Source: Ignavibacteria bacterium
GTDB lineage: Bacteria > Bacteroidota > Ignavibacteria > Tepidaquicellales > OLB5
Length of the DNA: 64,000 nucleotides
Direction: 5' to 3'
Assembly: GCA_020852705.1 (NCBI GenBank)
Contig: JADZAP010000032.1
Location: 1 to 64,000 of the forward strand
The notes under the pieces were generated by a model that was given only the letters and a program-made list of their open reading frames with translations, ran no database searches and was not told the origin of the DNA. The stretch's first letter is position 1; the number at the start of each line of letters is the position of its first letter. Positions 1,992 through 58,514 of this stretch are shown piece by piece. The position numbers and the translations under genes are program-made.

Positions 1992-3224
1992 ATGCTGAAC
2001 TTTCCTATTTATCTGGATAATAACTCAACTACCAAAGTAGATATGCTGGCATTGGAAGCTATGCTGCCTTATTTTACTGAAAACTATGGCAACTCATCAA
2101 GCAAATCTCATCAGTTCGGCTGGAAAGCCGAAGCCGCTGTGAATATTGCAAGAAAACAAACTGCTAAACTTATTAGTTGTGAACCTCGTGATATAATTTT
2201 CACAAGCGGTGCTACTGAATCAATAAATCTTGCTCTAAAAGGCGCTGCCGAAGCTTATGCAACTAAAGGTAACCACATAATTACAACTAAAATTGAGCAT
2301 GAAGCTGTAATAGATTCATGTAATCATCTTGAAGCAAAAGGTTTTAATGTTACTTATGTTGATGTTGATCATAATGGAATAGTCTCCATTGAGGAAATTG
2401 AACGTGCAATAACTTCAAATACAATTCTGGTTTCAGTAATGTGGGCTAATAACGAAATCGGCACTATTCAGCCCGTAAAAGAAATTTCAAAACTTTGCAG
2501 ACTTAAAAAAATATTATTCCATACAGATGCAACTCAGGCAGTTGGTAAAATTCCAATTGATCTGAGTAAAATTCATATTGATCTGCTTAGCTTTTCATCA
2601 CATAAACTATATGGACCCAAAGGAGTTGGAGCTCTTTATAAATCCGGTAAACTGCCGCGAGTAAGAATTGTAAGGCAAACAGATGGCGGTGCTCAGGAAA
2701 AAGGACTTAGAGCCGGTACTTTAAATGTGCCCGGTATTGTTGGATTTGGAAAAGCATGTCAAATTTCTGCTGATTGCATGAATAAAGAAGCTAAATCAAT
2801 AAAAACTTTAAGAAATAGACTGCTTGAGGGAATTAATTCTGGGGTTAATGGAGTTAAAGTTAATGGTGATCTTCATTCTCGCTTGCCCGGTAATCTGAAT
2901 TTAAGCATTCCCGGCATTGATGCTGATTCCCTTATCATAGCAATGAAAGATGTTGCCGTTTCAACCGGAAGTGCTTGTTCATCTGAATCAGTTGAACCTT
3001 CACATGTCTTAAAAGCCATCGGACTTGATAAAGATTCTATGCGCTCTGCAATAAGGTTTGGTATTGGAAGATTTAATACCTCCGAAGAAATTGAATATGT
3101 TATAAATTGTATTACTGAAAAAGTAAATAACTTTAGAGAAAATTCCCCTTCTAACATTTCACCTTTTGCAAATGAAGGTGGAAATAATAATAAAGTTAAT
3201 AAGGGAGATTATGCTGAAGTTTAA
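1992..3224 (+). CDS. iscS: Cysteine desulfurase, IscS/NifS family
   Basis: PLP enzyme that takes sulfur from L-cysteine as an enzyme persulfide for Fe-S cluster and thio-cofactor synthesis. Numbered from the ATG at 1992, the PLP lysine is Lys205 in SFSSHKLYGP, and the persulfide cysteine is Cys329 in the loop STGSACSSES, both typical of group I (IscS-like) enzymes. Length of about 410 residues fits IscS. A TTG at 1983 in the same frame would overlap the regulator by 8 bases, but the ATG one base after the regulator stop gives the usual family N-terminus (PIYLDNNSTT). The gene overlaps the following outer-membrane protein gene by 14 bases. No IscU scaffold is adjacent. Confidence 0.94.
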   Translation: MLNFPIYLDNNSTTKVDMLALEAMLPYFTENYGNSSSKSHQFGWKAEAAVNIARKQTAKLISCEPRDIIFTSGATESINLALKGAAEAYATKGNHIITTKIEHEAVIDSCNHLEAKGFNVTYVDVDHNGIVSIEEIERAITSNTILVSVMWANNEIGTIQPVKEISKLCRLKKILFHTDATQAVGKIPIDLSKIHIDLLSFSSHKLYGPKGVGALYKSGKLPRVRIVRQTDGGAQEKGLRAGTLNVPGIVGFGKACQISADCMNKEAKSIKTLRNRLLEGINSGVNGVKVNGDLHSRLPGNLNLSIPGIDADSLIIAMKDVAVSTGSACSSESVEPSHVLKAIGLDKDSMRSAIRFGIGRFNTSEEIEYVINCITEKVNNFRENSPSNISPFANEGGNNNKVNKGDYAEV

Positions 3225-4008
3225 CTGTTTTTACAAAAAAATATTATTGGCAGCAGCTTCAGTTTTGGTTTTTGGTTCTTTCTCAAACGGTACTTTTGCT
3301 CAGTCAAAAAAAACTGTACTTAACCGTGACTCATTCAGCCGCATTCAGCTTTCTTTCAGTATCGGATATTCAAGACCTCTGCTTGAGGCCTATGGCGAAA
3401 AAGTTACTATTAATTCAACCCAAGATGTAATTTTTATTGATGGCAAGCGAATGATTATTTCCGAAAATTTTGCTACTAAAGCCGGTTATGGTGTGCAAAC
3501 CTTCATGAAGTACAGTTTTTTAAAAAAAGGGCAGGTAAAAGGATTGCTGAATATTGGTTACAATTCGCTTATTGGTACTTATCCAGGTCCTTCTGATTAT
3601 AATATAGGTGTTAGGATTCAAAGTTTTTCTGTTGGGCTTGGAACTGAAATTAATCCGATTGGGCACAATTCGTCGGTTTATCCTTCTGTGTTTGGTTTAC
3701 TGCGTTTAAATTTTATGGGCGGTGAGTCATTCCATAAAGCAGGACTTGATTTCTTTAAAGTTGTTCCAAGATACGGATACAGTGCAGGTTTAAGCATGAA
3801 TTTTAAACTGAAACAAACTATAGACCTTTCAGCCGGCTATAGTTATAGCTATGATAATGTTTGGAACAAAGAACCTGCCGAAGAAACTATAGCTGATGCG
3901 CATGTTATTCCGCTTCGTGATAAAAAAAGCACTACCAACGGCTTAAATAGTAACAGAAGAATAGCATATTGGTCATTGTATTTGGGAATGAATTTTTTCT
4001 TTAAATAA
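3211..4008 (+). CDS. Outer-membrane beta-barrel protein, unknown function
   Basis: Protein of 265 residues. The start chosen is the ATG at 3211, which has a good Shine-Dalgarno (AAGGGAG) 7-10 bases upstream and gives a clean signal peptide: basic MLKFNCFYKK, a hydrophobic stretch, then FAQ at about residue 30. An upstream in-frame start at 3166 would put a poor sequence before the signal. The rest alternates polar and hydrophobic residues in strands separated by Gly/Asn/Asp turns (for example SIGYSRPL, AGYGVQTFMKYSF, LSAGYSYSY) and ends in NFFFK, as in outer-membrane barrels. It starts inside the cysteine desulfurase gene, so it belongs to that operon. A link to iron or sulfur is only suggested by position. 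Confidence 0.75.
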   Translation: MLKFNCFYKKILLAAASVLVFGSFSNGTFAQSKKTVLNRDSFSRIQLSFSIGYSRPLLEAYGEKVTINSTQDVIFIDGKRMIISENFATKAGYGVQTFMKYSFLKKGQVKGLLNIGYNSLIGTYPGPSDYNIGVRIQSFSVGLGTEINPIGHNSSVYPSVFGLLRLNFMGGESFHKAGLDFFKVVPRYGYSAGLSMNFKLKQTIDLSAGYSYSYDNVWNKEPAEETIADAHVIPLRDKKSTTNGLNSNRRIAYWSLYLGMNFFFK

Positions 4009-4128
4009 AGTATTTTGTATTAAATATTCCTGAAATTTCAATTTACATAATTACAGAAACATATAATTATTAAACCATCTTTTAAATTAAATTTTTTTAG
4101 AGCAGCAAATTAAATTTAAATAAATATT

Positions 4129-4509
4129 ATGGCAGATACAAACATTGTTACTCCCCAAATCAGTAAACCCGAAGTTTCTGACGGTATTTCATTAACAGAT
4201 AAAGCCGTTAAAGAAGTTAAAAAAATAATAGCAGAAAATTCCATCCCTGCTGATTATGTATTAAGGATCGGGGTTAAAGGAGGCGGATGTTCCGGCTTAA
4301 GCTATACTCTAGGTTTTGATGCAGAACTTAAAGACTCCGATAAAGTGATAACATTTGATGATATTAAAGTTGCAGTTGATTGGAAAAGTATTCTGTATTT
4401 AACAGGTACAACTGTAGATTATACAGACGGTCTTAATGGCAAAGGATTTACATTCAATAATCCCACTGCTAAAAAAACCTGCGGATGTGGCAGCTCATTT
4501 GGGGTATAA
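4129..4509 (+). CDS. Iron-sulfur cluster assembly protein, IscA/ErpA/HesB family
   Basis: A-type Fe-S carrier of 126 residues that receives clusters and hands them to apo-proteins. The three conserved cysteines are present: Cys54 in KGGGCSGLSY and Cys118/Cys120 in TCGCGSSF near the C-terminus. The N-terminal 20 residues are an extension before the usual family start. It is the third Fe-S/redox-related gene in a row on this strand, after the Rrf2 regulator and cysteine desulfurase. The assignment to iscA, erpA or sufA cannot be decided from sequence alone. Confidence 0.93.
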   Translation: MADTNIVTPQISKPEVSDGISLTDKAVKEVKKIIAENSIPADYVLRIGVKGGGCSGLSYTLGFDAELKDSDKVITFDDIKVAVDWKSILYLTGTTVDYTDGLNGKGFTFNNPTAKKTCGCGSSFGV

Positions 4510-4616
4510 AAATTTTTATCATTCTTAATGGATTTACATCCCTATAGGTAAACATCTTTATAGAGATAAACATCCTGAGAAAGTAACATTTTAAATATTT
4601 AATAAGGAGCAGCGTT

Positions 4617-5393
4617 TTGAAAGATAAAGGCAGAAGAGAGTTCATAAAAACTTCGGCACTTGGTGCTGTTTCCTTTGGGTTCCTTTCCGGGATTGATTTA
4701 ATAAATAATTTAAATAATAATTCAGAGGGCAAAATGCTCTCTAAACCTGAAGGAGGTTTGATTAAAATGGCTTACGAATGGAAATTTAACCCGCGTCCCT
4801 ACAGCGATGATGAAGCAAAATCACTTTTAAAAGATGTTGTTGATGCTGAAACTGCTGACTGGCATTACAATACACATCATAAAGGCTATGTTACTTTTTT
4901 AAACAACATTGAAAAAGAATTGGAAACCGCTGATCTTTCTAAAGCTAACGGAAACTGGTCTGTTATCGGCGAGCTTAAAAGAAGATTTACATGGAATCAT
5001 TCAGGTGCTTACCTGCATGATGTTTATTGGGATAACTTAGGCGGTGATGGCGATATTTCTAAAGGTGTTGATATTAAAGCTGCTATTGAAGCTAACTGGG
5101 GCTCCGTTGATAAATGGAAAGCCGAGTTTAAAGCGTGTGCTGTTGCTGCAAAATTAAGCGGCTGGGGTTTGCTTGTTTTTGATAAACTTTATTCCGGCAG
5201 ATTAATTAATGTTTTGGAAGATGAACATCAGTATGGTGCTATTTGGGGAGGGATTCCATTAATTGCTTGCGATGTTTTTGAACATGCTTATTACCATAAA
5301 GATGGACCTGCACGAGGTAAATATATTGATAACTTCCTCAATAATTTAAATTGGGGCAGAATTAACGACAGGTTTAACAAATACTGTAAATAA
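4617..5393 (+). CDS. Superoxide dismutase (Fe/Mn type), Tat-exported
   Basis: Converts superoxide to oxygen and peroxide. The metal ligands align as His83, His134 (in HSGAYLHDVYW), Asp219 and His223 (in CDVFEHAYY). Start is a TTG at 4617, supported by AAGGAG 7 bases upstream; no in-frame ATG gives a full N-terminus. The N-terminus is a twin-arginine signal, GRREFIKTSALGAVSFGF, so the enzyme is probably folded with its metal in the cytoplasm and exported to the periplasm. Most bacterial Fe/Mn enzymes of this family are cytosolic and about 200 residues, so the 50-residue leader is unusual. It follows the IscA-type gene by 107 bases. Iron versus manganese use cannot be told by eye. Confidence 0.93.
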   Translation: MKDKGRREFIKTSALGAVSFGFLSGIDLINNLNNNSEGKMLSKPEGGLIKMAYEWKFNPRPYSDDEAKSLLKDVVDAETADWHYNTHHKGYVTFLNNIEKELETADLSKANGNWSVIGELKRRFTWNHSGAYLHDVYWDNLGGDGDISKGVDIKAAIEANWGSVDKWKAEFKACAVAAKLSGWGLLVFDKLYSGRLINVLEDEHQYGAIWGGIPLIACDVFEHAYYHKDGPARGKYIDNFLNNLNWGRINDRFNKYCK

Positions 5394-5419
5394 TTTATAG
5401 TATTTTTTCAGTTTTTTCG

Positions 5420-5441
5420 GGGAACGGATTTTTCCGTTCCC
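5420..5441 (+). terminator. Hairpin after superoxide dismutase gene
   Basis: A 9-bp perfect stem (GGGAACGGA with TCCGTTCCC) with a 4-base loop lies 27 bases after the stop. The T-tract behind it is interrupted, so termination may be only partial. Confidence 0.5.
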
Positions 5442-5483
5442 TGTGATTTTATACCCTTTTAAATTGTTTATTATTTATAAAAT

Positions 5484-6131
5484 TTGTGCTATTTTATTAA
5501 AAATTTAAAGAAAATTTCAACTATTTTGACTAAACTCCACAGATCATTATTTTTTCTTTCTATTATAATTATATTTACAATTACAGGAACAATTTTTGTT
5601 TCCTGCGGTAATAAAAATGAAAATTCAGGGAATAATTCCAGTGAAAATAAAACCGGTGATAATAAAATTAGTGATAACAAATCCGGAGAGTTTACCTGGA
5701 AAGATGGTTTAACCGCTTCCGATATTCCTGATTTTCCCGTTAAAGGTAAAATAAACGGAAAAGATGTTCAGTTTGCTTATATAAATTTTGAAAAATGGCG
5801 CGGTGCCGGTGATAATGTTATCAATTTTTCACTTGTAAAGCCCAATCAAAACTGCGGATTTATTGATGGCTTTGAGGGCTTTACTTTAATAAACAAAGCT
5901 GCTGAAATTAAACAGGGCTTATATATTAAATCAAAATTTGCCGATGATCCAGCTTCTTATTCAGCAAGTTTTACTTCTGGCTTAAATAAATCTGCTATTG
6001 AGTGGAACTGCGCTTTAGAAATAGAAAGCATTCAGGATAAATCAGTAAAAGGTAAAATTGCTCTTTTCTTTAATGATGCTTCAAAAAGCTGGGTTGCCGG
6101 AAAGTTTGATGCAATTTTATGCAATAATTAA
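5484..6131 (+). CDS. Putative lipoprotein, unknown function
   Basis: I do not recognise the family. The N-terminus has a basic region, a hydrophobic helix (FFLSIIIIFTITGTIF) and a lipobox-like V-S-C, so the mature protein probably begins at Cys41 as a lipid-anchored protein. A low-complexity Asn/Lys/Ser/Glu linker follows to about residue 68, then a folded domain of about 145 residues with no motif I can name. The start is uncertain: TTG at 5484 is the longest form, and TTG at 5526 gives a more normal signal peptide. Neither has a strong ribosome binding site. It may share a transcript with the next small lipoprotein gene, 70 bases downstream. Confidence 0.7.
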   Translation: MCYFIKNLKKISTILTKLHRSLFFLSIIIIFTITGTIFVSCGNKNENSGNNSSENKTGDNKISDNKSGEFTWKDGLTASDIPDFPVKGKINGKDVQFAYINFEKWRGAGDNVINFSLVKPNQNCGFIDGFEGFTLINKAAEIKQGLYIKSKFADDPASYSASFTSGLNKSAIEWNCALEIESIQDKSVKGKIALFFNDASKSWVAGKFDAILCNN

Positions 6132-6201
6132 GCTCTTAAATTTACTCATTTTAATTTTTAAAATTTAATATTAAATATTTTATATAACATATTCTTAAAG
6201 C

Positions 6202-6699
6202 ATGAAAACAAAACTAAATTTATTTTTTGCAGTATTTGCAGCAACAGCAGTCATTTTTTCAGGATGCACAAAGCAGGATCAAAAAACAGATGTTAACAAA
6301 AAAGATTCTTCATCAACAACTCAGCAAACAAATATTGCCGGTGAAAATAAAACCAATAATACCGGTCAGGAAAATAAATCCAATGAACTTGGTATTAAAA
6401 AAGAAATGCCTGCTGATTATCCCAAAGATATTCCTCAGCCGGTAAACTCTAAATTCCTTGGCACGCTTAATACCTCTGAAGGAACTGTAGTTACATTTGA
6501 ATCTACCGATAAGCCAAGAACAGTTCTTGCACCATTTACTGAAGCTGTTGAAAAAGCGGGATTTAAAAAATCCGAAGCTGAACAAATGAGTGATGATGGA
6601 GGAATGGTTATGTGGAAAATGGATAAGCGTGAAGTAAGCATTATGCTTGCATGGGATAAAGAAAAAAATGTTTGCTCTGTAGTTGTTACTTATAAATAA
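6202..6699 (+). CDS. Small lipoprotein, unknown function
   Basis: Protein of 165 residues with a classic lipoprotein signal: MKTKLNLFF, a hydrophobic core and the lipobox FSGC (Cys22). Residues about 25-70 are a low-complexity Lys/Asn/Gln/Ser linker. The C-terminal 95 residues form a small alpha/beta domain with a Tyr-Pro-rich entry (PADYPKDIPQP) and the sequence GGMVMWKMDKREV. The linker resembles that of the preceding lipoprotein gene, which suggests a related job, but no function can be assigned. Confidence 0.8.
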   Translation: MKTKLNLFFAVFAATAVIFSGCTKQDQKTDVNKKDSSSTTQQTNIAGENKTNNTGQENKSNELGIKKEMPADYPKDIPQPVNSKFLGTLNTSEGTVVTFESTDKPRTVLAPFTEAVEKAGFKKSEAEQMSDDGGMVMWKMDKREVSIMLAWDKEKNVCSVVVTYK

Positions 6700-6747
6700 T
6701 TGATTTCTAAATTTCAGTTATAGGGTCGTTAAATAATATTTTTTACA

Positions 6748-9243
6748 ATGAATTCAAAATACAGAATATTGAGACTGTTACTATTATGTTCAATATTTCT
6801 TATTCAGACTTTCATTAATTATACCTACTCTCAGTATCCTGTTGTATTTGTATCACGCAATATAGTTTCAGGCGGCAGTTATTATTATCCTCAGGCAAGT
6901 CTGGTACCCGGTATGGGACCCTATGCCAGAATATCCGTTACTGGAGGCAGACTACTTGTTCGCGAAGCAAATGGTACCATTAGAGTTCTTGTTGATAGCA
7001 CTATGAACTTTAACGGTATAAAGCTCGTTGATGTTTCTTCACCATGTGTTTACTGGGATGCTTCTAAAATTGTGTTTTCAGCGGTTGAAAACCGCGATAG
7101 CAGCTGGAGAATTTATGAAATCCGTGCTGATGGCTCAGGATTTAAAAAAATTACTTCCTCTGACCGTAATATAAGTCTTGCTCAATTTGGACCTATTGCA
7201 TATAAATTTGTAAGGTATGATGATGTTGACCCATGCTATTTGCCTGATGGCAGAATTTGTTTTTCAAGCACCAGATATCCTGCACTTTCACAATACACTG
7301 CAAAACGGGTTACAAATCTTTATATAATTGATACAACTTCACTAAACCTTCACCGTATTACCACAGAAAGAAATGGTGCTGATGAGCCAACAATTGATCC
7401 CGCAAGCGGAAAAATTATTTACAGCAGATGGTGGTTAAATATTGATCATCCCTCAATTTTAACACCTAACGGATTAACTCGTGATTCTGCTTTGGCTGTT
7501 ACCAATGATATTGCCAATGTTTGGTCAGCAGCTAAAATAAGACCCGATGGTGATGCTCTTGCTTTGTATGCCGGCACCGGCAACTGGCGTCTTGGACAAA
7601 ATAACTACAAGCCCGCATTGTTAAGTGATGGCAGAATGCTAAGTCTTTTCACCCCCGATAATTCTATGTCTTATACATCCGGATCATCCGGTATCAGATT
7701 ATTTGACCAGGGAAACTGTTATGGCTTACCTGTTATCGGAGTTAATCCTGAAAGTATGCATCTCTATATTCAGAATCCTCCGTCTTATGGTATTATGCAG
7801 CCGCCGTATGCCTGTGATCCTGTTGAATTACCTAATAATCTAATTCTCATTTCTTATGCCAATAATGTTGAAAATCAGGACTATGGTCTCTATACTGTAA
7901 ATCTTAACGGCAGCGGACTTACACCATTCTATGATATTACAGGTAAAATGGAGCTTAATGCCGAGGTTCTTTTGCCTAAAACCGTTCCCCCTGTTCTAAT
8001 TGATGGAGTTGTTGATATTGCAAGTGAATATCCCCCTACTCGTGATCCTTCTACATGGTTTAAAGATGGCGGATTCAGGTTTGATTGTGTTAATATGTTC
8101 TATAATGGTGATGTTGATATTCCTATGCAGGATGCACCCCCAATTACAAGATTTGCCCGGATTAATTTCTTTGTTAGCTTTCAGCGGCAGGATTCAACTG
8201 GGCGTGACTCAGCACTTTATTTTAATTATGCACCGGTTTTTCATACTGGACAGATTGCATTTGATAATGCGCCGGCAAATGTTTCTATGTTTGAGCAGGT
8301 TGTTGACTCAACCGGAAAAGTGCTGCGAGGCTCAACAGGACAGGTTGCTCACGTTATTGGTATGAATTATGGTCCACCGGGGACAGGAACAAAATGCGTT
8401 GGCTGTCATTCAGGTCATACTCAGATTCCTGTACCTCCTAATATTACAGAATCTTCATTCTTTAATGTTTCTACTTCCGCTGAGGTTACGCAAAGTTCAT
8501 TTCTGTTTGTAAACGATACAATGCAGTATCCGGGTAAAAAGGTTGTTGACCGTAAAGCTAGAAATGATTCCCTTAGCGTAAACTGGATAGCTGCCGGAAG
8601 CAATAATGAGTTTGTCCATTTAACATGGAGTGTTCCTGTTGATGTTAGAAAAATAAATTTGTATAACATTAAAAATAATTCTTCAACTAATACTAATATT
8701 CAGGTAACAGATTGTGAAGTTTTCTTCTATTATAATGGCAATCAGGTGTATCATATCCCTTCAACTGGTGCAATAAACGAAGGTGGATCACCCTTTAACG
8801 TTAGTGGTCTGCCAAAGGTAAATGAAGTTAAAGTTATTGTTAAATCATTTACCGGTTTAATTAATGGCGTAAGCCGTGCAGGACTCGCTGAGGTTGAAAC
8901 TAATGCCAGAATTTCATACTACGATGTCTTTGGTATTCAAACTATTTCTCAAACTGCAGCTGAATTTTCTTTATCGCAAAATTATCCAAATCCGTTTAAC
9001 CCAACTACTAAGATCAGATATTCCATCCCTAAAAATTCTAACAGCAGCTTTGGAAACTTTGTTAAACTTGTTATTTATGATATCACCGGAAAAGAAATTG
9101 CTATAATTGTTAACCAATTCCAGAAGCAGGGAATTTATGAAGCTGAATTTAATGCATCTAATCTTGCAAGCGGTGTGTATTTTTACAAACTTACCGTTGA
9201 TAATAAATTTTCCGATGTTAAAAAAATGGTTGTAATTAAGTAA
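6748..9243 (+). CDS. T9SS cargo: PD40 beta-propeller protein with one c-type heme site
   Basis: Exported 831-residue protein. A signal peptide (residues 1-27, ending TYS) precedes propeller blades of the PD40/WD40-like type, such as DPCYLPDGRICFSSTR (about 160-175) and DPASGKIIYSRWW (about 215-228). A heme attachment motif C-V-G-C-H lies at 550-554, followed by a beta-rich region and the T9SS sorting domain (N-Y-P-N-P-F-N-P at 745-752). The order of propeller then heme motif recalls the hydrazine synthase alpha subunit superfamily, but many heterotrophs carry such proteins and there is no beta/gamma subunit here, so no hydrazine chemistry is claimed. It is probably a cell-surface or secreted redox or binding protein. 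Confidence 0.85.
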   Translation: MNSKYRILRLLLLCSIFLIQTFINYTYSQYPVVFVSRNIVSGGSYYYPQASLVPGMGPYARISVTGGRLLVREANGTIRVLVDSTMNFNGIKLVDVSSPCVYWDASKIVFSAVENRDSSWRIYEIRADGSGFKKITSSDRNISLAQFGPIAYKFVRYDDVDPCYLPDGRICFSSTRYPALSQYTAKRVTNLYIIDTTSLNLHRITTERNGADEPTIDPASGKIIYSRWWLNIDHPSILTPNGLTRDSALAVTNDIANVWSAAKIRPDGDALALYAGTGNWRLGQNNYKPALLSDGRMLSLFTPDNSMSYTSGSSGIRLFDQGNCYGLPVIGVNPESMHLYIQNPPSYGIMQPPYACDPVELPNNLILISYANNVENQDYGLYTVNLNGSGLTPFYDITGKMELNAEVLLPKTVPPVLIDGVVDIASEYPPTRDPSTWFKDGGFRFDCVNMFYNGDVDIPMQDAPPITRFARINFFVSFQRQDSTGRDSALYFNYAPVFHTGQIAFDNAPANVSMFEQVVDSTGKVLRGSTGQVAHVIGMNYGPPGTGTKCVGCHSGHTQIPVPPNITESSFFNVSTSAEVTQSSFLFVNDTMQYPGKKVVDRKARNDSLSVNWIAAGSNNEFVHLTWSVPVDVRKINLYNIKNNSSTNTNIQVTDCEVFFYYNGNQVYHIPSTGAINEGGSPFNVSGLPKVNEVKVIVKSFTGLINGVSRAGLAEVETNARISYYDVFGIQTISQTAAEFSLSQNYPNPFNPTTKIRYSIPKNSNSSFGNFVKLVIYDITGKEIAIIVNQFQKQGIYEAEFNASNLASGVYFYKLTVDNKFSDVKKMVVIK

Positions 9244-9245
9244 CC

Positions 9246-9352
9246 AATCTTTGTGCCTCTTAGTGATCTATGTAATATATACTTCAGTGCTTCTAATTCT
9301 TTGCGTCTTCGCGCCTTTGCGAGAGTTATTTCATGCTTCTTGACTGCCTGAA
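9246..9352. repeat. Direct repeat, copy 1
   Basis: This copy matches the copy at 9421-9527 base for base from 9246 to 9343, then has a single mismatch (9344) up to 9352. The copies are offset by 175 bases. The inner part contains the chained motif TTTGCGTCTTCGCGCCTTTG, a periodic TTTGCG-type sequence of a kind common in dispersed intergenic repeats. Confidence 0.95.
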
Positions 9353-9362
9353 TATTTCTCCC

Positions 9363-9386
9363 CTCTCCCTGCCTTGTAAAGGAGAG
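9363..9386. repeat. Short hairpin element, copy 1
   Basis: CTCTCC pairs with GGAGAG around a 12-base loop. The loop core CTGCCTTGTAAAGG is shared with the element at 9558-9575, while the stem bases differ in a paired way. Confidence 0.7.
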
Positions 9387-9420
9387 ATGATAATCAAAAT
9401 ATTTTCCATTCCATTTCTTA

Positions 9421-9527
9421 AATCTTTGTGCCTCTTAGTGATCTATGTAATATATACTTCAGTGCTTCTAATTCTTTGCGTCTTCGCGCCTTTGCGAGAG
9501 TTATTTCATGCTTCTTGATTGCCTGAA
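9421..9527. repeat. Direct repeat, copy 2
   Basis: Second copy of the repeat at 9246-9352, nearly identical (one T for C at 9519). The flanks differ between the copies, so the duplicated unit is about 107 bases and the intervening 68 bases are distinct. Confidence 0.95.
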
Positions 9528-9557
9528 AATTTCTCTCCTTTTAAGAAAGGGCAGAGC

Positions 9558-9575
9558 ACCTGCCTTGTAAAGGTG
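9558..9575. repeat. Short hairpin element, copy 2
   Basis: CACCT pairs with AGGTG around the loop GCCTTGTA. It shares the 15-base core CCTGCCTTGTAAAGG with the element at 9363-9386, and each copy follows one copy of the long direct repeat. Confidence 0.65.
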
Positions 9576-9597
9576 AAGTTACAATCTATCTCGCTGT

Positions 9598-10287
9598 TTA
9601 ATGGTGATGATCATGATGTTCATGATGTATCTCATCAAGCAGCTCTCGCTTATTTGCTTTGCCGTTGGAGTTGATTGAAACTATATAACTTGGTACGCCA
9701 ATATCATTCATTACACAGGGTATTAGAACAGAAAAAATCAATATCGGCAAAAAGATCAATGCTTTAATTGAAATGACTGAAACGCCGTAAGTTATAAGAT
9801 ACATTCCTGCTGCTGTTGAACTTAAAAATATATGCAGTCCGTGTGTGTAACGTGATAGTTTTCTTACCGAAAACGAAAGTATATATCCAAGAACTGCCCC
9901 TGTTATAATGAAGAACCATGATAAAGCAGGTTCTTCTATGATGCAAACATGGAAATGCATATCATAACCCAAAGCAAGCCCGCCAATATACGGCAGTACA
10001 ATATCACTAAGTGTGCAAGTTAAAGATGAGGTTATTATTGCAACAATAACTCCCAGCCAAACAGATTTTTTATATTTTGCCAGCAGAGAGGCAGGTGTAA
10101 GTGCTGCAAAGAAAAGATGAGAAATGAAAAATCCCTCAAATAGATCTTCGGTCTCAGGGGAAGCATCGGGGAAAATTGTTAATTTTAATATTGAAATAAT
10201 TAACCCTGAAACAATTACTGCAACTGCTGTGAATTTCCAGTGAGTACTTAATTCATCAACAAATATGTTTTTGTGAGTATGTTCCAT
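9598..10287 (-). CDS. Multi-pass membrane protein with His-rich tail, unknown function
   Basis: Protein of 229 residues with about six hydrophobic segments (near 18-37, 50-66, 73-97, 119-138, 150-170 and 173-190). The C-terminus is a histidine cluster, HHEHHDHHH, and the N-terminus also starts MEHTHK. Such tails often bind nickel, zinc or cobalt in metal transporters and metallochaperones, so a metal-related role is possible, but I recognise no transporter family signature. It is a single gene, and converges on the repeat-filled gap. The ATG at 10287 is the only good start. Confidence 0.75.
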   Translation of the reverse strand: MEHTHKNIFVDELSTHWKFTAVAVIVSGLIISILKLTIFPDASPETEDLFEGFFISHLFFAALTPASLLAKYKKSVWLGVIVAIITSSLTCTLSDIVLPYIGGLALGYDMHFHVCIIEEPALSWFFIITGAVLGYILSFSVRKLSRYTHGLHIFLSSTAAGMYLITYGVSVISIKALIFLPILIFSVLIPCVMNDIGVPSYIVSINSNGKANKRELLDEIHHEHHDHHH

Positions 10288-10413: not shown

Positions 10414-10689
10414 TTATGGGGTATAATCTTTGAGTTTTTCTTTTATAATAGTTTTTTCAATAAAATTACCTTCATTAAGTTGTTTTATAATATCATCTAT
10501 AATTTTTTTTGCTTCATTCTTTTTGTAGTCCTTTATAAATCCGTCAAAATAGCTGTCTCCTGCCATAGCTCGGTTAATTTCAACGTGTTTATTATGTTCA
10601 TTAAGTTCAGTATAATAAACCACTCTGAATTTTTTATTATAATTCTTATCACGGTAAATTTCAAACATTATTTTATCTGATTCGTACAT
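10414..10689 (-). CDS. Small hypothetical protein, unknown function
   Basis: Soluble, charged protein of 91 residues rich in Lys, Glu, Asn and Tyr, with a predicted strand-rich N-terminal half (MFEIYRDKNYNKKFRVVYYT) and a helical C-terminal half. I recognise no family. The opposite strand has an open frame of similar size, but it is Phe-rich with a biased composition, as expected of the shadow of a Lys-rich gene. The minus strand also matches the direction of both neighbours. Codon content looks normal for this genome. Confidence 0.6.
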   Translation of the reverse strand: MYESDKIMFEIYRDKNYNKKFRVVYYTELNEHNKHVEINRAMAGDSYFDGFIKDYKKNEAKKIIDDIIKQLNEGNFIEKTIIKEKLKDYTP

Positions 10690-10783
10690 AAAACTAATTT
10701 GGAGTAATTAAATATTTATAAAATTTGTGTAATTTATCTGCAAATTTAGCTTAAAGTATATATTTAGACAAGGCAGAAGTTAT

Positions 10784-11335
10784 TTATGAATTTGCAATTG
10801 CCTCTGCAATAGTAGTTGACCCGCCTTCAAAATCATCCTTTAGTGCATCCCATTTTTTACCGATATTTGTCTGGTTTAGTATAAGTAATTCATCTGTTAG
10901 CTCATCTCCATCGTTAAAATTAAGCTCACATGCGTAAAGTTTGCCTGGATCTTTGTAATCATATATTGGCATACCAAATCTTCTGCAAATCACAGGCCTA
11001 GCGTTGTAAATAGTACATTCACCTTCATTTCCCAAAGCGGGGCAGGGCGGATTGAAATTTCCCCTCTCTGATTTATCCTTTTTGCTTTTTTTTAATTGTT
11101 CTAAATATTCTTCTGCTTTATTTTGCAAATCCTGTTTTTGCTTTTTAGGCAATGTTTTTACATGCTCGCTTATTATCCAGCCGTCAAGTTTTGTAATTCT
11201 AAAAATCTGTGAGCAGCATTTGTTGCACCCTCGGCTGCACTTTATTTTATCACCGTAAATACCCAAATTCCGGTCAAATTCCTGCTGAATAAGATCAGTT
11301 ATTTCGTAAAACTTTTGCTTAAATTCTTCTTTCAT
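10784..11335 (-). CDS. YkgJ-family cysteine cluster protein
   Basis: Protein of 183 residues of the CxxxCxxCC family, probably binding zinc or an Fe-S cluster. The N-terminal cluster is C-S-R-G-C-N-K-C-C (Cys33, 37, 40, 41), and further conserved cysteines lie in the family-typical block PPCPALGNEGECTIYNARPV followed by IC (Cys98, 107, 117), plus Cys136. Members include the flagellar FliB-like N-methyltransferases, but most, like this one, have no known reaction. It stands alone between unrelated genes. Confidence 0.88.
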   Translation of the reverse strand: MKEEFKQKFYEITDLIQQEFDRNLGIYGDKIKCSRGCNKCCSQIFRITKLDGWIISEHVKTLPKKQKQDLQNKAEEYLEQLKKSKKDKSERGNFNPPCPALGNEGECTIYNARPVICRRFGMPIYDYKDPGKLYACELNFNDGDELTDELLILNQTNIGKKWDALKDDFEGGSTTIAEAIANS

Positions 11336-11490
11336 TTTTATGGAACAATTTTAAATAATCAGTATATAACCTTCTATAATGTTTAAAAAGATTTTAGATC
11401 TATTTTGAAAATTTTATGGATTTTCAATATTTCTTTTATGGTTTGAAAAAGTAAGGAATTTACACTAAATTTACAATTCACAATTAAAAA

Positions 11491-12666
11491 ATGTTTAAAA
11501 AAGCTCTAAAAATTAAGGTTTTTGGCATTACTGCTGCAGTTATTTTATTTGGATTTGTTTTTACTCAGTTAGACTACTCTCAGGAAGCAAATAAATCCAC
11601 TAAAATTACTGAAGAAAATACATCACAAAATTCAAACAGCCAAAACAATTCAAATCAAAATTCTGTAGGTTACGAAAAAGTAACCTTACCCATTACTGAT
11701 GCAGAAAACATTGATGGTCAGATTGAAAATTATTTAAAGGATCTTTTTCCAATAATAAGTGATGAGGAAATAGAATCCATTAAAGGTTCTAAAGAAATTT
11801 CTAAAAAACTTGTTAATGATACTTTGGGACATGTTGAAATTAATTTAACAATTAATGTTCCCTCGCACTATCTTGACCCCGAACCAAAAATGCTGTGGGA
11901 GCTTAACATTCCAGAATTTACATCACGTATATACCAGATTTATAAAAACGATACAATACTTATTACAGTTTGGCCAAATGTTGTTGGAGCACCGGGTACA
12001 AAAACTTATACAGGTTATTACAATATTTTTAAATTAAGAAACTGGCCCTCATGGAAAGATCCTGATAGTGATCCAAATTCACCAGGCACACCGCCCGGAC
12101 CGGGTAACCCACTGGGTTTGTTTGCTGCGCATTATGATGAAAATTCGCTCCGGTATTTTCACGGTACCAATAGAAACGGCTTGCTTAAAAATGAATACCG
12201 AGCTCTTTCTCACGGATGTGTAAGAAACGATAACGGAAATATTGATAAAATGAAGCGGTTTATTGTGAAGAAAATTGTGACAAGTCAGGATATTAGCTGG
12301 TGGGCTAACAGTAAAAAATCTATGATTTACAATTTAACTGAAGAAGAAAAAGATAGATTTCCTGTGAGAATAATATATAAAACTTTTCAAGTCGGCTCTG
12401 ATTCTTACGGCGATTATATCGAGTTCTTTAAAGATATCTACGGATACGAAAAAGGAAAACAAATTAGCAAATATGACAGAGAAGAGCTTATGACTTTTCC
12501 AACAGTTGAAAATATTTCTGCTGAATATAAGGCAATGCATAAACCAAATCAATTTCAGCTTTCTAATGATAAATTAATACCAATTATTGAAAACCTGCTT
12601 AATGATCACAAAAATTATACAAAATATTACTTTGATGATTTTTTAAGCGGGAAAAATACAAATTAA
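11491..12666 (+). CDS. L,D-transpeptidase (YkuD/ErfK fold), exported
   Basis: Peptidoglycan cross-linking or protein-anchoring enzyme of the YkuD fold. It has an N-terminal membrane or signal segment (10-27) and a Gln/Asn/Ser-rich linker (about 32-58). The catalytic domain shows the entry loop GPGNPLGLFAAHY, His224 in HGTN, and the active site S-H-G-C-V-R (His241, Cys243, Arg245). The C-terminal 120 residues have no motif I know. It acts in the periplasm on stem peptides. The large outer-membrane protein gene follows 64 bases later on the same strand. Confidence 0.9.
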   Translation: MFKKALKIKVFGITAAVILFGFVFTQLDYSQEANKSTKITEENTSQNSNSQNNSNQNSVGYEKVTLPITDAENIDGQIENYLKDLFPIISDEEIESIKGSKEISKKLVNDTLGHVEINLTINVPSHYLDPEPKMLWELNIPEFTSRIYQIYKNDTILITVWPNVVGAPGTKTYTGYYNIFKLRNWPSWKDPDSDPNSPGTPPGPGNPLGLFAAHYDENSLRYFHGTNRNGLLKNEYRALSHGCVRNDNGNIDKMKRFIVKKIVTSQDISWWANSKKSMIYNLTEEEKDRFPVRIIYKTFQVGSDSYGDYIEFFKDIYGYEKGKQISKYDREELMTFPTVENISAEYKAMHKPNQFQLSNDKLIPIIENLLNDHKNYTKYYFDDFLSGKNTN

Positions 12667-12730
12667 AGACTGCTTAAGGTAAATTTCTTAAGGTAAAACC
12701 CGGGCAGGCGTAACTTTTTAATGGTATTAT

Positions 12731-15700
12731 TTGAAGCCTCCTCACAAAATTGCGGCAATTCTTTTAATTCTTTTAGCTGGAACTGTACTTTCTCAGCCAA
12801 AAACCTTTAACGATATTAATTACAAAAAATTTGTAACAACTGCAGCAAGCGAAGATTCTCTTATTTCTCTCCCGGATAAGTTCATAAAGTTTGGAAGTTT
12901 AACCGTTTTTTCAGATTCAGCTGAAGTTAATCCTGTTAACTATACAATTGATTTCCGTTATGGTATAATAAAGCTGCAAAAATTTTTCATTCAGGAAATT
13001 ATCAATTCCGGCAAGCCGGAAAGACTTCAGCTTATAATTACTTATAAAAACTTTCCGTTTGATATTGCCGATAGTTATTCAAGGTTTGAAACCATTAATA
13101 AATTAGATACTTCCAGCGGTGATAGCGTTAAAGTTGTTGAAATAAAATCTGATTTTGTTGAAGATATTTTTGCAGGTACCGATCTAACAAAATCTGGCAG
13201 TATTTTCCGCGGTTTTACTGTTGGCAATAACCGGGATCTCTCTCTGCAATCCGGGTTTCGCCTGCAGTTGAACGGTAAGCTATCAAATGATATTGAAATT
13301 ACTGCTGCCCTTACTGATGAAAATACCCCTATTCAGCCCGAAGGCAATACTCAAAAACTGCAGGAGCTTGATAAAGTGTTTGTTGAACTTCGCTCAAGCA
13401 ATATTACAGCTACTCTTGGAGATATTGAAGTTAATCTCAGCGGAAACGAGTTTTTCAATTTCAGCAAAAAGCTGCAAGGTGCAAAAGGATTTGCAAATTA
13501 CAACAAAACTGATCTTTTTTTAACCGGTGCACTAAGCAAGGGAAGATTTAGCACAAATTCTTTCAACGGTCAGGATGGGGTGCAGGGTCCTTACCGGCTT
13601 ATTGGTGCCGATAATGAAGTGAATATTGTTGTTATTGCAGGAAGCGAAAAAGTTTATCTTGATGGCGTTTTATTAACAAGAGGTGAAAGCAACGATTATA
13701 CAATTGATTACTCAACAGGGCAGGTGAAATTTACAAACAACAGACTTATTACAAATGCCTCTAGAATTGTAATTGACTTTGAATATTCAGATAAAAAGTA
13801 CAGCCGTAGTTTTATTGCCGGTCAAACACACACAGCATTATTAAATGATAGACTTAAATTATCTTTTTCCTATCTGCGTGAGCGTGATGACCCCGGCAAA
13901 CCTATTGATTTTACTTTATCTGATTCAGATCGTACAATAATCTCTCAAGCGGGTGATAACAGATTGTTAGCTTCCAAAACTGGCGTAACTTATGTTGGAA
14001 GGGATTCCCTTGGTAATTCACTTGGCTTATATATTCAGCGCGATACTGTTATTAACAGCCAGTCCGTAAAAAAATATATTTACGCACCCGGTGATACTGC
14101 AGCTCTGTATCAGGTAACATTTTCATTTGTAGGAACCGGTAAAGGCGAATATAACAGCTTAAGCAGCAGTGCTTATACTTATGCCGGGCAAGGGCTTGGT
14201 AGCTATCTTCCCCTTATATTTTTCCCTCTGCCTGCTTCATATCAATCAGCTGATGTTGGACTTGACTTAAAAATTTCAAAGGATATATCCCTTACAATGG
14301 AAGGCACTGCAAGTGATTTTGATGTTAACCTGCTGAGCGGACTTGATGACCACGAAAACAAAGGAGGTGCTTTTTCAGCATCTCTTTTGTTTAACCCAAA
14401 AATTTTTAAAATTGGTAAACTTAACCTTGGTGAAGTTCTGTTTACTGTTCGTCAAAAGGTTGTTAATAAGCTCTATAACGCTGTTGATAGGTTAAATAAA
14501 GTTGAGTACAACAGAGTTTGGGATATAAATGACAGCACAAAATTAACAGAAGTAACAACCGAAGCAGGTTTAATCATAAAGCCTCAAAAGTATTTTAGTA
14601 TTTCAACAACAGGGGGTAAAATTAAACGCGGTGATAAATTTAACTCACTTCGCGGCTCGCTTGATATAAAATTTGCAGGTGATAGCTTAAATATTCCTTC
14701 TTTAAGCTATAATGCAGATTATATTTCCAGTAAAGATAATTCAATTGATTACGGAGGTAAATGGATTAGGCAGTTTGGTGCCATTGATTATAAATTGCAG
14801 CCTTTCAAAAATAAAAGTTTTGGCAAGTATAATCTGAAATTTGAAATTAATGGTGAAGATAAACAAACCCGGTCACTTAACTATGATTCTGTTAATTCTG
14901 GGAGTTTTAGATTTTATGAGTTTAAACCAAAACTTTTTATAACAGATCTTTTTAACCTTGATCTAAGTTACCAGTTCAGCTACAGGTTTGATGACGCTTT
15001 TAATTCAGGCACTTTAACCAGACAGTCAAATTCATATACCAGCACCTTTGGTGCAAGACTTAAAAACCTTAATTTTATTTCAATAAACGGTGACCTTGTT
15101 GTTTATGACAGAAAATATTCTCCTGAATTCCAGAACAAAGGGCTTACAGATTCTCGTACAATTCTTGTTACCTCGCAAAGTAATATCTGGTTTTTTAACC
15201 GGGGATTTAACACTAATTTGTTTTATAAAGTATCCAGCGAACGCACAGCTAAACAGGAGGTTGTTTTTATACAGGTAACAATGGGTACAGGAAATTATAA
15301 ATATATTGGTGATCTTAACGGAAACGGACTGCAGGATGAGAATGAATTTGTGCTTACTAACTTTGATGGTGATTACATAAAATTATTCAGACCAACAGAC
15401 CAGCTTTTTCCTACTACTGACCTGCAAAGTTCTGCAAGCATTAACATAATTCCCTCAAGGTTTACTGCAGGGTTAAAAAATGGTATCCTTAAAACAATTC
15501 TCAATAATATTACATCTGATTCATACATAAGTGTTTCTGAAAAAAGCAAAGATCCTGTTCAAAAAAATATATATTTCCTTAAGTTCAGCACATTTCAAAA
15601 TAATGAAAACACAATTGCCGGTGCTACAACTATACAGCAGGATTTTGGAATATTTGAAAACCACGAATATTTTGGTATTAAACTTCGTTTTGTACAGCGT

Positions 15701-16264
15701 AAAGGGCTAACTCAATATTTTTCTGGTAATGAAAGACTTCTAAATACTGAACGCACTGCCAGATTGCGTCTTTCTTTCACCCCTGACCTTGCACTTATAA
15801 GCGACTATGTTTCACAAATTGAAAGGAACAATTCCCCCGGGGTTGAAATCAGAAATTGGAATATAAATTCCGAAGGTATTACCTCAGAACTTATTTATAA
15901 ACCAATTCAAACAATAGAAGCAGGTTTTAAAGTACAGTTAAAACGTGCTAAAGATAACTTTCCGGTAAATCCAACTCAAGCAGATATAAATGTTCAGACT
16001 TTTCGTTTGACATATTCATTTTCAGGCAAAGGTACTTTGCGAAGTGAAATTTCAAGAAATGAAGTATTGATGAATTCCACACCTTCATTTGTTCCGTTTG
16101 ATCTTACTAAAGGACTTGTTGCAGGCAAGAGTTTTTTTTGGTCACTTAACTTTGAGTACAGGATAAGTAATTTTATTCAGGCAACTATAAATTATTTTGG
16201 CAGAGCCGAAGATAAAGCAAGGGTAATACATACCGGCACTGCTGAAATAAGAGCTTATTTTTAA
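12731..16264 (+). CDS. Very large outer-membrane or cell-surface protein with SprA-like strand motifs
   Basis: Protein of 1177 residues, TTG start at 12731 (no in-frame ATG is near), with signal peptide MKPPHKIAAILLILLAGTVLS. No sorting domain and no lipobox are present. The sequence is rich in alternating beta strands throughout and ends RVIHTGTAEIRAYF, as in outer-membrane barrels. Two places share a pattern Y-T-I-D-[FY]-x-x-G followed by a strand and a basic turn (about 67-107 and 304-350, the latter with GSEKVYLDGVLLTRG). Similar units occur repeatedly in the giant T9SS translocon protein SprA/Sov, which is about twice this length. I therefore suspect a surface or translocation-related role, but this is inference. 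Confidence 0.7.
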   Translation: MKPPHKIAAILLILLAGTVLSQPKTFNDINYKKFVTTAASEDSLISLPDKFIKFGSLTVFSDSAEVNPVNYTIDFRYGIIKLQKFFIQEIINSGKPERLQLIITYKNFPFDIADSYSRFETINKLDTSSGDSVKVVEIKSDFVEDIFAGTDLTKSGSIFRGFTVGNNRDLSLQSGFRLQLNGKLSNDIEITAALTDENTPIQPEGNTQKLQELDKVFVELRSSNITATLGDIEVNLSGNEFFNFSKKLQGAKGFANYNKTDLFLTGALSKGRFSTNSFNGQDGVQGPYRLIGADNEVNIVVIAGSEKVYLDGVLLTRGESNDYTIDYSTGQVKFTNNRLITNASRIVIDFEYSDKKYSRSFIAGQTHTALLNDRLKLSFSYLRERDDPGKPIDFTLSDSDRTIISQAGDNRLLASKTGVTYVGRDSLGNSLGLYIQRDTVINSQSVKKYIYAPGDTAALYQVTFSFVGTGKGEYNSLSSSAYTYAGQGLGSYLPLIFFPLPASYQSADVGLDLKISKDISLTMEGTASDFDVNLLSGLDDHENKGGAFSASLLFNPKIFKIGKLNLGEVLFTVRQKVVNKLYNAVDRLNKVEYNRVWDINDSTKLTEVTTEAGLIIKPQKYFSISTTGGKIKRGDKFNSLRGSLDIKFAGDSLNIPSLSYNADYISSKDNSIDYGGKWIRQFGAIDYKLQPFKNKSFGKYNLKFEINGEDKQTRSLNYDSVNSGSFRFYEFKPKLFITDLFNLDLSYQFSYRFDDAFNSGTLTRQSNSYTSTFGARLKNLNFISINGDLVVYDRKYSPEFQNKGLTDSRTILVTSQSNIWFFNRGFNTNLFYKVSSERTAKQEVVFIQVTMGTGNYKYIGDLNGNGLQDENEFVLTNFDGDYIKLFRPTDQLFPTTDLQSSASINIIPSRFTAGLKNGILKTILNNITSDSYISVSEKSKDPVQKNIYFLKFSTFQNNENTIAGATTIQQDFGIFENHEYFGIKLRFVQRKGLTQYFSGNERLLNTERTARLRLSFTPDLALISDYVSQIERNNSPGVEIRNWNINSEGITSELIYKPIQTIEAGFKVQLKRAKDNFPVNPTQADINVQTFRLTYSFSGKGTLRSEISRNEVLMNSTPSFVPFDLTKGLVAGKSFFWSLNFEYRISNFIQATINYFGRAEDKARVIHTGTAEIRAYF

Positions 16265-33474: not shown

Positions 33475-35166
33475 ATGAAAAAGTTAATTATATTCATAGC
33501 TGTATTTTTTGTAATAACTTCAGTTTCATTTGGTCAGTTAATTACAAAAGTTTTAACATATAACGGTCCGGGCAATCAGCTTGATAAATGCACCGGTATT
33601 GTTGAAGATAACTTTGGATTTGTTTATGCAACAGGCGTAAGCTGGGGTTCAAATAGTACTAAAGAGGATTATGCTACTATTAAATTCGGTGAAGATGGCG
33701 ACTATATCTGGGCTGTAAGATATGACGGACCCGGGCATAACTTAGATCATGCTTCTGCAATTACCATTGATAACTCGGGGAATGTTTATGTTACAGGATG
33801 GAGCCGTTCAGGCAGCAGTTATGGTACAGAAGATTACTGCACTATAAAATATAATAATCACGGGCAGCAGCTTTGGGCTGCAAGATTTGACGGTGCCGTT
33901 GGAAATGACTGCTATTATTATGATTATGCCAATGCAATTTATGTAGATGAATTTGGTAATGTTTATGTTACGGGTGAAAGCTGGGGGAATGATGACCTAA
34001 ATGGTGACTACCTGACTCTTAAATATAATTCAAACGGTAACCTTCAGTGGGCAAAAAGATATAACGGCTCATCAAGTAAAAATGATTTTGCATCAAGCAT
34101 TGCTGTTGATCCATCAGGTAATGTTTACGTTACTGGAGCAAGCCAAATGCAAAGTAAAGGTTACGATTATGCAACAATAAAATATTATTCATCCGGTTCA
34201 CAGCAATGGTTTAAAAGATATGACGGTCCGGCTTATCTTGATGATAAAGCTTGTGAGCTTAAAGTTGATGCTTTTGGTAATGTTTATGTTACAGGTTCCT
34301 CTCACGGAGGGTCTTCAAAACTTGATTATGTAACCATTAAATATAATACTGCAGGTACTCAGCAATGGCTTACAAGATACAATAACTCTGCAGTTAATGA
34401 TACAGATGCTGCTACCGGGCTTGACTTAGATGTTTATAGAAATGTATATGTTACAGGTTACAGCAAGTCTTCAGGCGCTGCTAGCTATGATTATGTTACA
34501 ATTAAATATTCAGGTTTTGATGGTTCCCAAGTATGGAATAATAGGTTAAACAAAGGTCTTTCAGATAAACCATGGGATATAAAAGTTCTGAACAAAAGCT
34601 GCGGTGCAATGGGTGATAATATAAACAGCGGTGTTGGTGAACCAGATATTCCTTGCTGGGATATATTTGTGTATGTTACAGGTGAAAGCAAAACTTCTGC
34701 GGGAACAGACTTTTTAACTGTTAGTTATAAGGAATCTGGTAATGAAAGATGGCAAATAAGTTTCAATGGACCACCTAACGGTAACGATGCCGCTTATTGT
34801 ATTGCTGCTAAATCATTTTACCCGGTAATTTACCTTGGCGGTTCTTTTGCTAATGATTACGGTATTATCGGTATTTCTGAGCTTTCAAGAACACTTTCAA
34901 GTAATGGCAAACAGGGTAGTTATAATTACCCTAATCCGTTTAATCCATCTACAACAATTAATTATTATGTTCCTAAAGAGTCTAACGTTAAAATAAGTAT
35001 TTATGATATATTGGGCAGAACAGTTGCTGAACTTGTAAACGAAAAGAAAGCTGAAGGGCAGTATAATGTTGTTTTCAATGCGTCTGCTCTAAACAGCGGT
35101 ATTTATTTTTACAGATTTAAAACTGATTATTCTGATGAAACCAAAAAGATTGTCCTCATTAAATAA
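33475..35166 (+). CDS. T9SS cargo: SBBP-repeat beta-propeller protein
   Basis: Secreted 563-residue protein with signal peptide (1-20, ending FGQ). At least six repeats of the pattern G-N-V-Y-V-T-G-x-S followed by D-Y-x-T-I-K-Y make a seven-bladed beta-propeller of the SBBP type, up to about residue 465. One stretch near 390-400 is rich in Cys and Asp and breaks the repeat pattern. The sorting signature is at 484-491. It follows the Ycf48-like gene by 50 bases and may be in the same transcript, since I see no terminator between them. Confidence 0.87.
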   Translation: MKKLIIFIAVFFVITSVSFGQLITKVLTYNGPGNQLDKCTGIVEDNFGFVYATGVSWGSNSTKEDYATIKFGEDGDYIWAVRYDGPGHNLDHASAITIDNSGNVYVTGWSRSGSSYGTEDYCTIKYNNHGQQLWAARFDGAVGNDCYYYDYANAIYVDEFGNVYVTGESWGNDDLNGDYLTLKYNSNGNLQWAKRYNGSSSKNDFASSIAVDPSGNVYVTGASQMQSKGYDYATIKYYSSGSQQWFKRYDGPAYLDDKACELKVDAFGNVYVTGSSHGGSSKLDYVTIKYNTAGTQQWLTRYNNSAVNDTDAATGLDLDVYRNVYVTGYSKSSGAASYDYVTIKYSGFDGSQVWNNRLNKGLSDKPWDIKVLNKSCGAMGDNINSGVGEPDIPCWDIFVYVTGESKTSAGTDFLTVSYKESGNERWQISFNGPPNGNDAAYCIAAKSFYPVIYLGGSFANDYGIIGISELSRTLSSNGKQGSYNYPNPFNPSTTINYYVPKESNVKISIYDILGRTVAELVNEKKAEGQYNVVFNASALNSGIYFYRFKTDYSDETKKIVLIK

Positions 35167-57536: not shown

Positions 57537-58514
57537 TTATTTAACTAAAAGCATTTTCTTTGTTTCTGTAAAACTTGATGTTTCTAATCTGTAGAAATAT
57601 GCTCCGCTTGAAAGATGTGATGCATTAAAGTTTATTTCATAACTTCCTGCATTAACATTCTGATTTACAAGTGTTGCAATGTTTTTACCTGTAATATCAA
57701 AAACTGTAATCTTTACATTACCGCTTACAGGAACTGCGAATTGTATCTTGGTTTCAGGATTAAACGGGTTTGGATAATTCTGTTTTAAATTGAATTTATC
57801 CGGAACGTTGCTGCTTATTGGAGTAATTCCTGTTAATGGACCTACTAACCTTATTAAATCATAACCAACATAATCGCTATTATTTCCGGCAGGCCCGCCT
57901 TGTGCAACACGATAGTTAATTGCGAATCTTCCTGTAGCACCAGCTGTAGGGATAACAAATCTTCTTTCCTGCCATGATCCTGAAGTAGTATTTTTAAATT
58001 TTCCAAGCTCTACCCATGAAGCTGTACCCGGAACGCTGTCACCATTTGATGCCCAGTGTACACGCATTGAATCAGGGAATGTTGAACCAGTTGGAGCTCT
58101 TTCATAGAATGTGATTGTATCGCCTGGTCCAGCATTTACAACCGGAGAAATTAGCCATAAATCAATTGTATTAGAGCCGGTTGTTGCATTAAAGTTTGAA
58201 CCAAGATATCCAGTTGATGGTCCCTCAAATGCGGGGAAAACTTGGTCATTTCCCTGGAAATAAAATGTGGAACCAATAGGACCGTGAAGCGGACCTCTTT
58301 TGGGAATCCATCCTCTTGCTTTTAAGCCATTGGTATCATTAGCGCCATTCATATCATCAGAAAATTTTACATCGTTACTAAAACTTACTGGTGGATTATA
58401 GCTGTTATCAGATGTTGACTGTGTTTTTGAGCCAAACTGGTCTAAGTAAAGCATGCCTGTAATTAATATACCGGCAATCACCAGACTTAAAAATGGAATA
58501 ATTCGTTTAATCAT
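57537..58514 (-). CDS. T9SS cargo: choice-of-anchor J-like domain protein
   Basis: Secreted 325-residue protein; the N-terminal helix FLSLVIAGILITGMLYL acts as signal or anchor. The central domain (about 50-215) has the features of choice-of-anchor J: LWLISPVVNAGPGDTITFYE and SMRVHWASNGD, and a later VGYDLIRLVG strand. Sorting signature at 246-253. It resembles in layout the protein at 49731-50603. A Shine-Dalgarno GAAAGGA lies before the ATG. Confidence 0.86.
   Translation of the reverse strand: MIKRIIPFLSLVIAGILITGMLYLDQFGSKTQSTSDNSYNPPVSFSNDVKFSDDMNGANDTNGLKARGWIPKRGPLHGPIGSTFYFQGNDQVFPAFEGPSTGYLGSNFNATTGSNTIDLWLISPVVNAGPGDTITFYERAPTGSTFPDSMRVHWASNGDSVPGTASWVELGKFKNTTSGSWQERRFVIPTAGATGRFAINYRVAQGGPAGNNSDYVGYDLIRLVGPLTGITPISSNVPDKFNLKQNYPNPFNPETKIQFAVPVSGNVKITVFDITGKNIATLVNQNVNAGSYEINFNASHLSSGAYFYRLETSSFTETKKMLLVK

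Follow-up and report, generated by a model that had tools for sequence, protein, structure and literature searches.

A stretch of 64,000 nucleotides from an Ignavibacteria bacterium (contig JADZAP010000032.1, positions 1 to 64,000; the window hereafter) encodes a 1177-residue protein with two copies of the pattern YTID[FY]xxG, a feature that has been likened to SprA, the translocon of the type IX secretion system (T9SS). Is this protein a form of SprA, a shortened relative, a partner of the T9SS, or the member of a separate system? A preliminary description of the locus had proposed a separate SprA-like pore or accessory. Our analysis shows that the protein is not SprA, that its two pattern-bearing segments are immunoglobulin-like (Ig-like) units homologous to one SprA domain, and that it belongs to a family distributed throughout the Bacteroidota. 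The reading that we favour, and consider probable, is that of an unnamed family of large Bacteroidota outer-membrane channels or pores that work alone, outside the set of fixed T9SS components.

The genome itself provides the first part of the answer. A full-length sprA is present on contig C44, and its 2202-residue product scores 945.4 bits with the SprA model TIGR04189 and is the sole match in the genome to PF14349 (SprA_N), as opposed to 32.1 bits for the 1177-residue protein against a cut-off of 200. These lengths agree with the earlier estimate of half the size of SprA. The further claims of a missing sorting signal and of a genome with many T9SS cargo proteins stand as well: no sorting domain (TIGR04183 / PF18962) is matched in Pfam or NCBIfam at E-values up to 10, so that the protein, which ends in AEIRAYF, does not count as cargo, and at least 150 sorting-tail matches are found in the genome. 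Those listed for the window include 6748-9243, 34927-35154, 40156-40401, 45769-45996, 57549-57776 and 58825-59052. The sprA gene (3198-9806 of locus L113) lies upstream of two frames on the same strand (10571-12622 and 12643-13593), which resemble secD and secF. GldL (TIGR03513, E <= 0.01) is not matched in this genome (G000), even though SprA and abundant sorting tails are there; its motor subunit may have diverged beyond the reach of the GldL model.

The established resemblance to SprA lies in a small part of the protein, where the following features can be placed (aa, amino acid positions):
12845-13045, plus strand: Ig-like unit 1 (aa 39-105), with YTIDFRYG; profile match to SprA residues ~646-705.
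12941-12964, plus strand: motif copy 1, YTIDFRYG (aa 71-78); pattern search.
13631-13798, plus strand: Ig-like unit 2 (aa 301-356), with YTIDYSTG; TIGR04189, hhalign, AlphaFold2 (AF2) and VIA.
13697-13720, plus strand: motif copy 2, YTIDYSTG (aa 323-330); pattern search.

A strict search for YTID[FY]xxG recovers the two sites reported previously, at residues 71 and 323, and 20,000 shuffles of the protein never yielded two copies and yielded one copy in only six instances. The relaxed pattern occurs in no other open reading frame of at least 80 residues in the window. The accompanying claim that the pattern is repeated in SprA is not borne out, since the strict form is absent from all 52 SprA sequences and the relaxed form appears once in 48 of them and not at all in the other four. 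Conservation within the protein's own family is uneven, with the relaxed pattern well kept at copy 2 (78 of 86 rows) and poorly kept at copy 1 (14 of 86). The motif marks two Ig-like domains and not repeated SprA strands, and in this respect the original observation was over-read.

The evidence for homology comes from profile-profile comparison with hhalign, in which the 86 family rows were aligned to 52 SprA rows, with SprA cut into windows and with reversed and column-shuffled SprA as decoys. Residues 300-390 align with SprA 658-739 at P 1.2e-12 (best decoy 0.0066), and residues 24-115 with the same place in SprA (~646-705) at P 7.7e-9 (best decoy 0.012). TIGR04189, searched against the whole genome, matches the protein only at 13631-13891 (aa 301-387), with an E-value of 1.6e-8. 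An AF2 model of the 73-residue unit 2 segment (15 rows) folds into an Ig-like sandwich with a predicted local distance difference test score (pLDDT) of 77.7, and in VIA this model matches residues 684-749 of Flavobacterium johnsoniae SprA (8gl6_A) with a Z of 5.5 (61 residues aligned, root mean square deviation 2.9 A, 30% identity) and residues 682-749 of a second structure of the same protein (Z 5.3, 27% identity). These two hits rank 20 and 31 in a list that holds numerous eukaryotic Ig domains, with Z up to 6.2, and also some phage tail complexes, while Foldseek against the PDB gives no match at E <= 0.001, its top rows being eukaryotic Ig domains and a beta-galactosidase, with SprA absent from the best 50. 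Taken alone, the modelled fold match to SprA would be weak, all VIA Z values being at most 6.2; its value lies in its coincidence with the SprA residues picked out by the profile match. Both Ig-like units are homologous to one SprA domain. The comparison with SprA thus supports the preliminary description as regards a single Ig-like domain, and departs from it in that this domain is neither repeated in SprA nor specific to it.

This last point follows from the presence of the unit in phage proteins. A translated search located it in 12 viral contigs, and in eight of the nine that were translated, those whose frame ends inside the stretch, it forms the extreme end of a protein of 148-575 residues. 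In the phage proteins of L214, L215, L217 and L218-L222, which have about 270-575 residues, the unit makes up the last ~55 residues (GSERVYLNGV...NDYT...). Among 40 family members, 24 match the phage distal-tail model TIGR02217 (best E 1.8e-5), nine match PF09343 and 18 match TIGR04189. For the window protein, TIGR02217 is the sole NCBIfam match at E-values up to 10, covering residues 302-352, and with 18.5 bits against a cut-off of 136.65 the protein is not a member of that family. Unrelated phage proteins also end with the unit, so its presence does not identify a SprA, and for the same reason the Y-[TS]-[IV]-D-Y-x-x-G sequence cannot serve as a SprA signature. Being common to SprA, to the family described here and to phages, the unit is therefore best seen as a mobile or generic Ig-like module.

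Does the likeness to SprA extend beyond this module? One further stretch deserves mention:
14327-14530, plus strand: aa 533-600, suggestive similarity to SprA 1383-1442 (hhalign P 3e-5 to 5e-5, score 34).
As an unrelated real barrel, SusC (30 rows) was used as a control; LptD had been considered for this role and was dropped, having been matched in 6 of 61 genomes and mostly as fragments. The SusC control reaches 30.8 at its best over any stretch and 27.0 within residues 533-600, and all other barrel stretches score against SprA inside the control range. On the other hand, the best matches are collinear with SprA (301-383 with 658-739, 533-600 with 1383-1442 and 1047-1122 with 2114-2186), and a weaker one (226-280 with 275-328) fits the same order, so that a common origin with SprA is conceivable. 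Because the SusC control attained 27-31, we do not claim collinearity of the barrel, nor do we claim extended homology at residues 150-298, where an initial P of 6e-4 fell back to 4e-3 with larger alignments. Homology to SprA outside the Ig-like unit is not established, and residues 533-600 are suggestive at the level of sequence. These data bear on the notion of a shortened SprA relative, in which the whole protein would descend from SprA, or SprA from it, with both the Ig-like unit and the barrel homologous, and would act as a second translocon that opens laterally and needs no T9SS motor. The strong homology of the unit, the shared order of matches and the presence of SprA in nearly every genome with the family (see below) speak for it, but residues 533-600 alone exceed every control outside the unit, the match at 150-298 faded as the alignments grew and the Pfam search finds no PF14349 domain, all of which leaves this explanation unlikely. 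A bolder version, to which we assign a somewhat lower probability still, would have a second SprA-derived translocon, with a compact barrel, the SprA Ig-like module plus gate and its own substrate class, that dispenses with the T9SS motor and outlives the T9SS in lineages such as that of genome G399 (see below).

The distribution of the family offers an independent view of its relation to secretion. It is matched in 163 of 197 genomes of the window's class (six of them at E-values of 5e-5 or worse) and in 235 of 395 genomes sampled across the Bacteroidota, 226 of them strongly (E below 1e-20). The nine weak phylum matches (E 4e-6 to 9e-4) were counted as family-negative, because the three that were inspected lie in SprA frames of 2,398-2,430 residues. 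The family is usually single-copy, with proteins of about 1,150-1,250 residues in open frames that mostly span 1,140-1,290, and it falls under no model of Pfam or NCBIfam. Its profile comprises 86 sequences (alignments A2 and A3 pooled) from the 226 strong phylum genomes and from other genomes of the class; the SprA alignment A4 retains 22 of 31 extracted loci, four without a full frame and five redundant ones having been left out, and alignment A6 consists of 40 of the 48 rows of A3.

SprA lies above its cut-off in 303 of the 395 genomes. According to a table compiled by eye, 225 genomes have both proteins, 78 have SprA only, one has the family only and 91 have neither. The family is associated with SprA and is no fixed part of the T9SS: it is not found wherever the translocon is, and one of the 92 genomes without SprA above cut-off has it. 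An accessory role, in which the protein would assist the translocon or some cargo at the outer membrane without belonging to the core, would gain from this association (225 of 303 genomes with SprA as against 1 of 92 without it above cut-off), from the SprA-like unit and from the abundance of cargo in the genome. Nonetheless, the 78 SprA genomes that lack the family are spread over many taxonomic families, and the one genome without SprA and with nearly all sorting tails gone keeps a full-length copy; both facts weaken the accessory idea. T9SS genes, moreover, are not found nearby in the clustered neighbourhoods, and since the listed genomes with neither protein belong almost entirely to a single taxonomic family (f33), much of the association goes back to common descent. 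A T9SS accessory thus seems improbable, and what endures of the original proposal is a protein distinct from SprA that probably forms a barrel in the outer membrane; with SprA it has an Ig-like domain in common. The family-only genome (G399), a single contig of 3.3 Mb, has two sorting-tail matches, where two genomes from the same taxonomic family have 31 and 43. SprA, which is not above cut-off there, and most of the T9SS cargo appear to be lost, whereas a full-length member of the family is retained.

The remainder of the protein is in keeping with an outer-membrane location. Its main features are these:
13181-13795, plus strand: most conserved block, aa 151-355 (GSI.RG..GNN.D ... IQPEGNTQ ... 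LGD ... RKLQG ... GPYRL ... Ig-like unit 2); relative entropy.
14246-16261, plus strand: predicted transmembrane beta-barrel, aa ~506-1177; from amphipathicity.
15311-15349, plus strand: predicted calcium-binding loop DLNGNGLQDENEF, aa 861-873; conservation and SdrD profile match.
16226-16261, plus strand: final predicted strand of the barrel, carrying the C-terminal Phe; family conservation.

A crude amphipathicity count gives regular peaks from residue 506 onwards, equivalent to about 26-32 strands; the same counter, at its middle threshold, returns 22 for SusC beyond residue 230, which is a 22-strand barrel. A C-terminal Phe, usual in outer-membrane barrels, is present in 84 of 86 family members. 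By these sequence features the protein is probably a separate outer-membrane protein forming a large barrel. In blocks of 25 residues over the 86 sequences, relative entropy amounts to 1.5-2.85 bits per column across residues 151-355 and to 0.6-2.1 bits in most other blocks, the exceptions being residues 851-875 (2.32) and the last two residues (2.65). The second conservation peak is the loop at residues 861-873, with the form DxNxDGxxxxxEF. A PDB profile search with A6 aligns this loop with an SdrD B-repeat structure (10ps_A, E 3.2e-5), and PF17210 is matched in 5 of 40 family members; the equivalent search with A2 gave nothing, and that with A5 gave a capsule depolymerase (E 0.0021). SdrD B repeats bind calcium and, by analogy, the loop may do so too. 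Ig-like domains and calcium loops of this kind are common in adhesins, which suggests that the barrel might merely anchor these regions in a non-channel scaffold, surface receptor or adhesin. However, conservation peaks at residues 151-355 and not in the predicted variable loops, and the protein has no large exposed passenger domain; we regard such a role as very unlikely.

We thus return to the channel or pore working alone. In this model the protein would be exported by Sec through its signal peptide, with Gln at +1; the N-terminal Ig-like domain would probably stay in the periplasm, and the 151-355 block, with Ig-like unit 2, would most likely lie within or span the barrel and serve as its gate or plug. 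A barrel of some 26-32 strands would probably be built from the last ~670 residues, and a loop stabilised by calcium would face outwards. The most likely task would be that of a large channel, or of an insertion or translocation pore, serving a single substrate of the envelope or surface. The Ig-like domain is shared with SprA, as part of the barrel possibly is too. Several observations weigh against this model. The strand counter overcounts, detecting 69 peaks in SprA at a threshold of 2.0 as opposed to 36 strands in the literature, and full-length AF2 (the window protein and L002-L008, eight sequences) yielded a pLDDT of 29 and was not used. Operon context points to no function. G399 is a single genome, and it keeps a GldL-like match at 69.6 bits, against a cut-off of 68.3. 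Finally, 225 of the 226 family genomes have SprA, so that some link to the T9SS may exist.

The gene itself is as previously described, one open frame on the plus strand:
12731-16264, plus strand: gene for the 1177-residue, probable outer-membrane protein; single open frame with a TTG start.
12731-12793, plus strand: signal peptide, aa 1-21, before Q22; from sequence, Q22 conservation and the Q-rule.
The TTG is the first start in the frame and is conserved in relatives of the genus, as is the ggtattat that precedes it in close relatives. Q22 is kept in at least 90% of the family alignment rows and its position at +1 fits the Bacteroidetes Q-rule, as given in the consulted part of PMC5837995; we infer that cleavage takes place exactly before it. 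Searches of the whole protein against Pfam and PHROGs return no family, and searches among plasmid and phage records were likewise negative. A YkuD L,D-transpeptidase (PF03734, E 4.7e-12) is encoded directly upstream, at 11491-12666, and a SpoU methylase downstream. This neighbourhood was discarded as a functional clue, its two members being kept only in near relatives and not beyond the genus, and no common neighbour is consistent among the 23 of 40 loci listed for Bacteroidia.

More generally, these results reveal, in over half of the Bacteroidota genomes in the sample (226 of 395), a large and probable outer-membrane protein for which Pfam and NCBIfam hold no model; a literature search that did not extend to preprints and most subscription papers returned no account of the family or of a SprA-related second protein. 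Were it a pore, it would rank among the larger single-chain barrels. The Ig-like unit ties the family to the T9SS translocon, and this makes it an obvious target for studies of envelope biogenesis or of the origin of SprA. A widespread and unnamed outer-membrane family of this kind merits experiment.

Comparison with known systems helps to delimit the family. With phage distal-tail proteins of the Rcc01695 family (TIGR02217 / DUF2460 PF09343) and those of the viral contigs it shares the same ~55-residue unit and nothing else, the phage proteins being short, ending with the unit and lacking a barrel. With the calcium domains of SdrD B repeats (10ps_A; PF17210) it has in common a short loop, GxYxWxDxNxDGxxxxxEF, in a likeness that spans about 20 residues while the remainder is unrelated. 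TonB-linked SusC/RagA proteins (TIGR04056) are comparable in length and, as is predicted for the family, form large barrels in the outer membrane of Bacteroidota, but the 1177-residue protein has no Pfam or NCBIfam match to their models. The novel F. johnsoniae subunits of the beta-barrel assembly machinery, in the consulted part of their description (PMC12611786), include no barrel of this size, BamG being a 14-strand barrel of the FadL type. SprA/Sov (TIGR04189, PF14349), whose barrel has 36 strands and opens laterally according to the consulted parts of PMC10994853 and PMC9581022, differs in its length of about 2,200-2,800 residues, its SprA_N domain (PF14349) and its single Ig-like unit, as opposed to the two found here. 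It is nonetheless a large Bacteroidota outer-membrane protein that widely co-occurs with the family, and the two share the Ig-like domain located at residues 658-739 of the SprA of the same genome and at 684-749 of that of F. johnsoniae.

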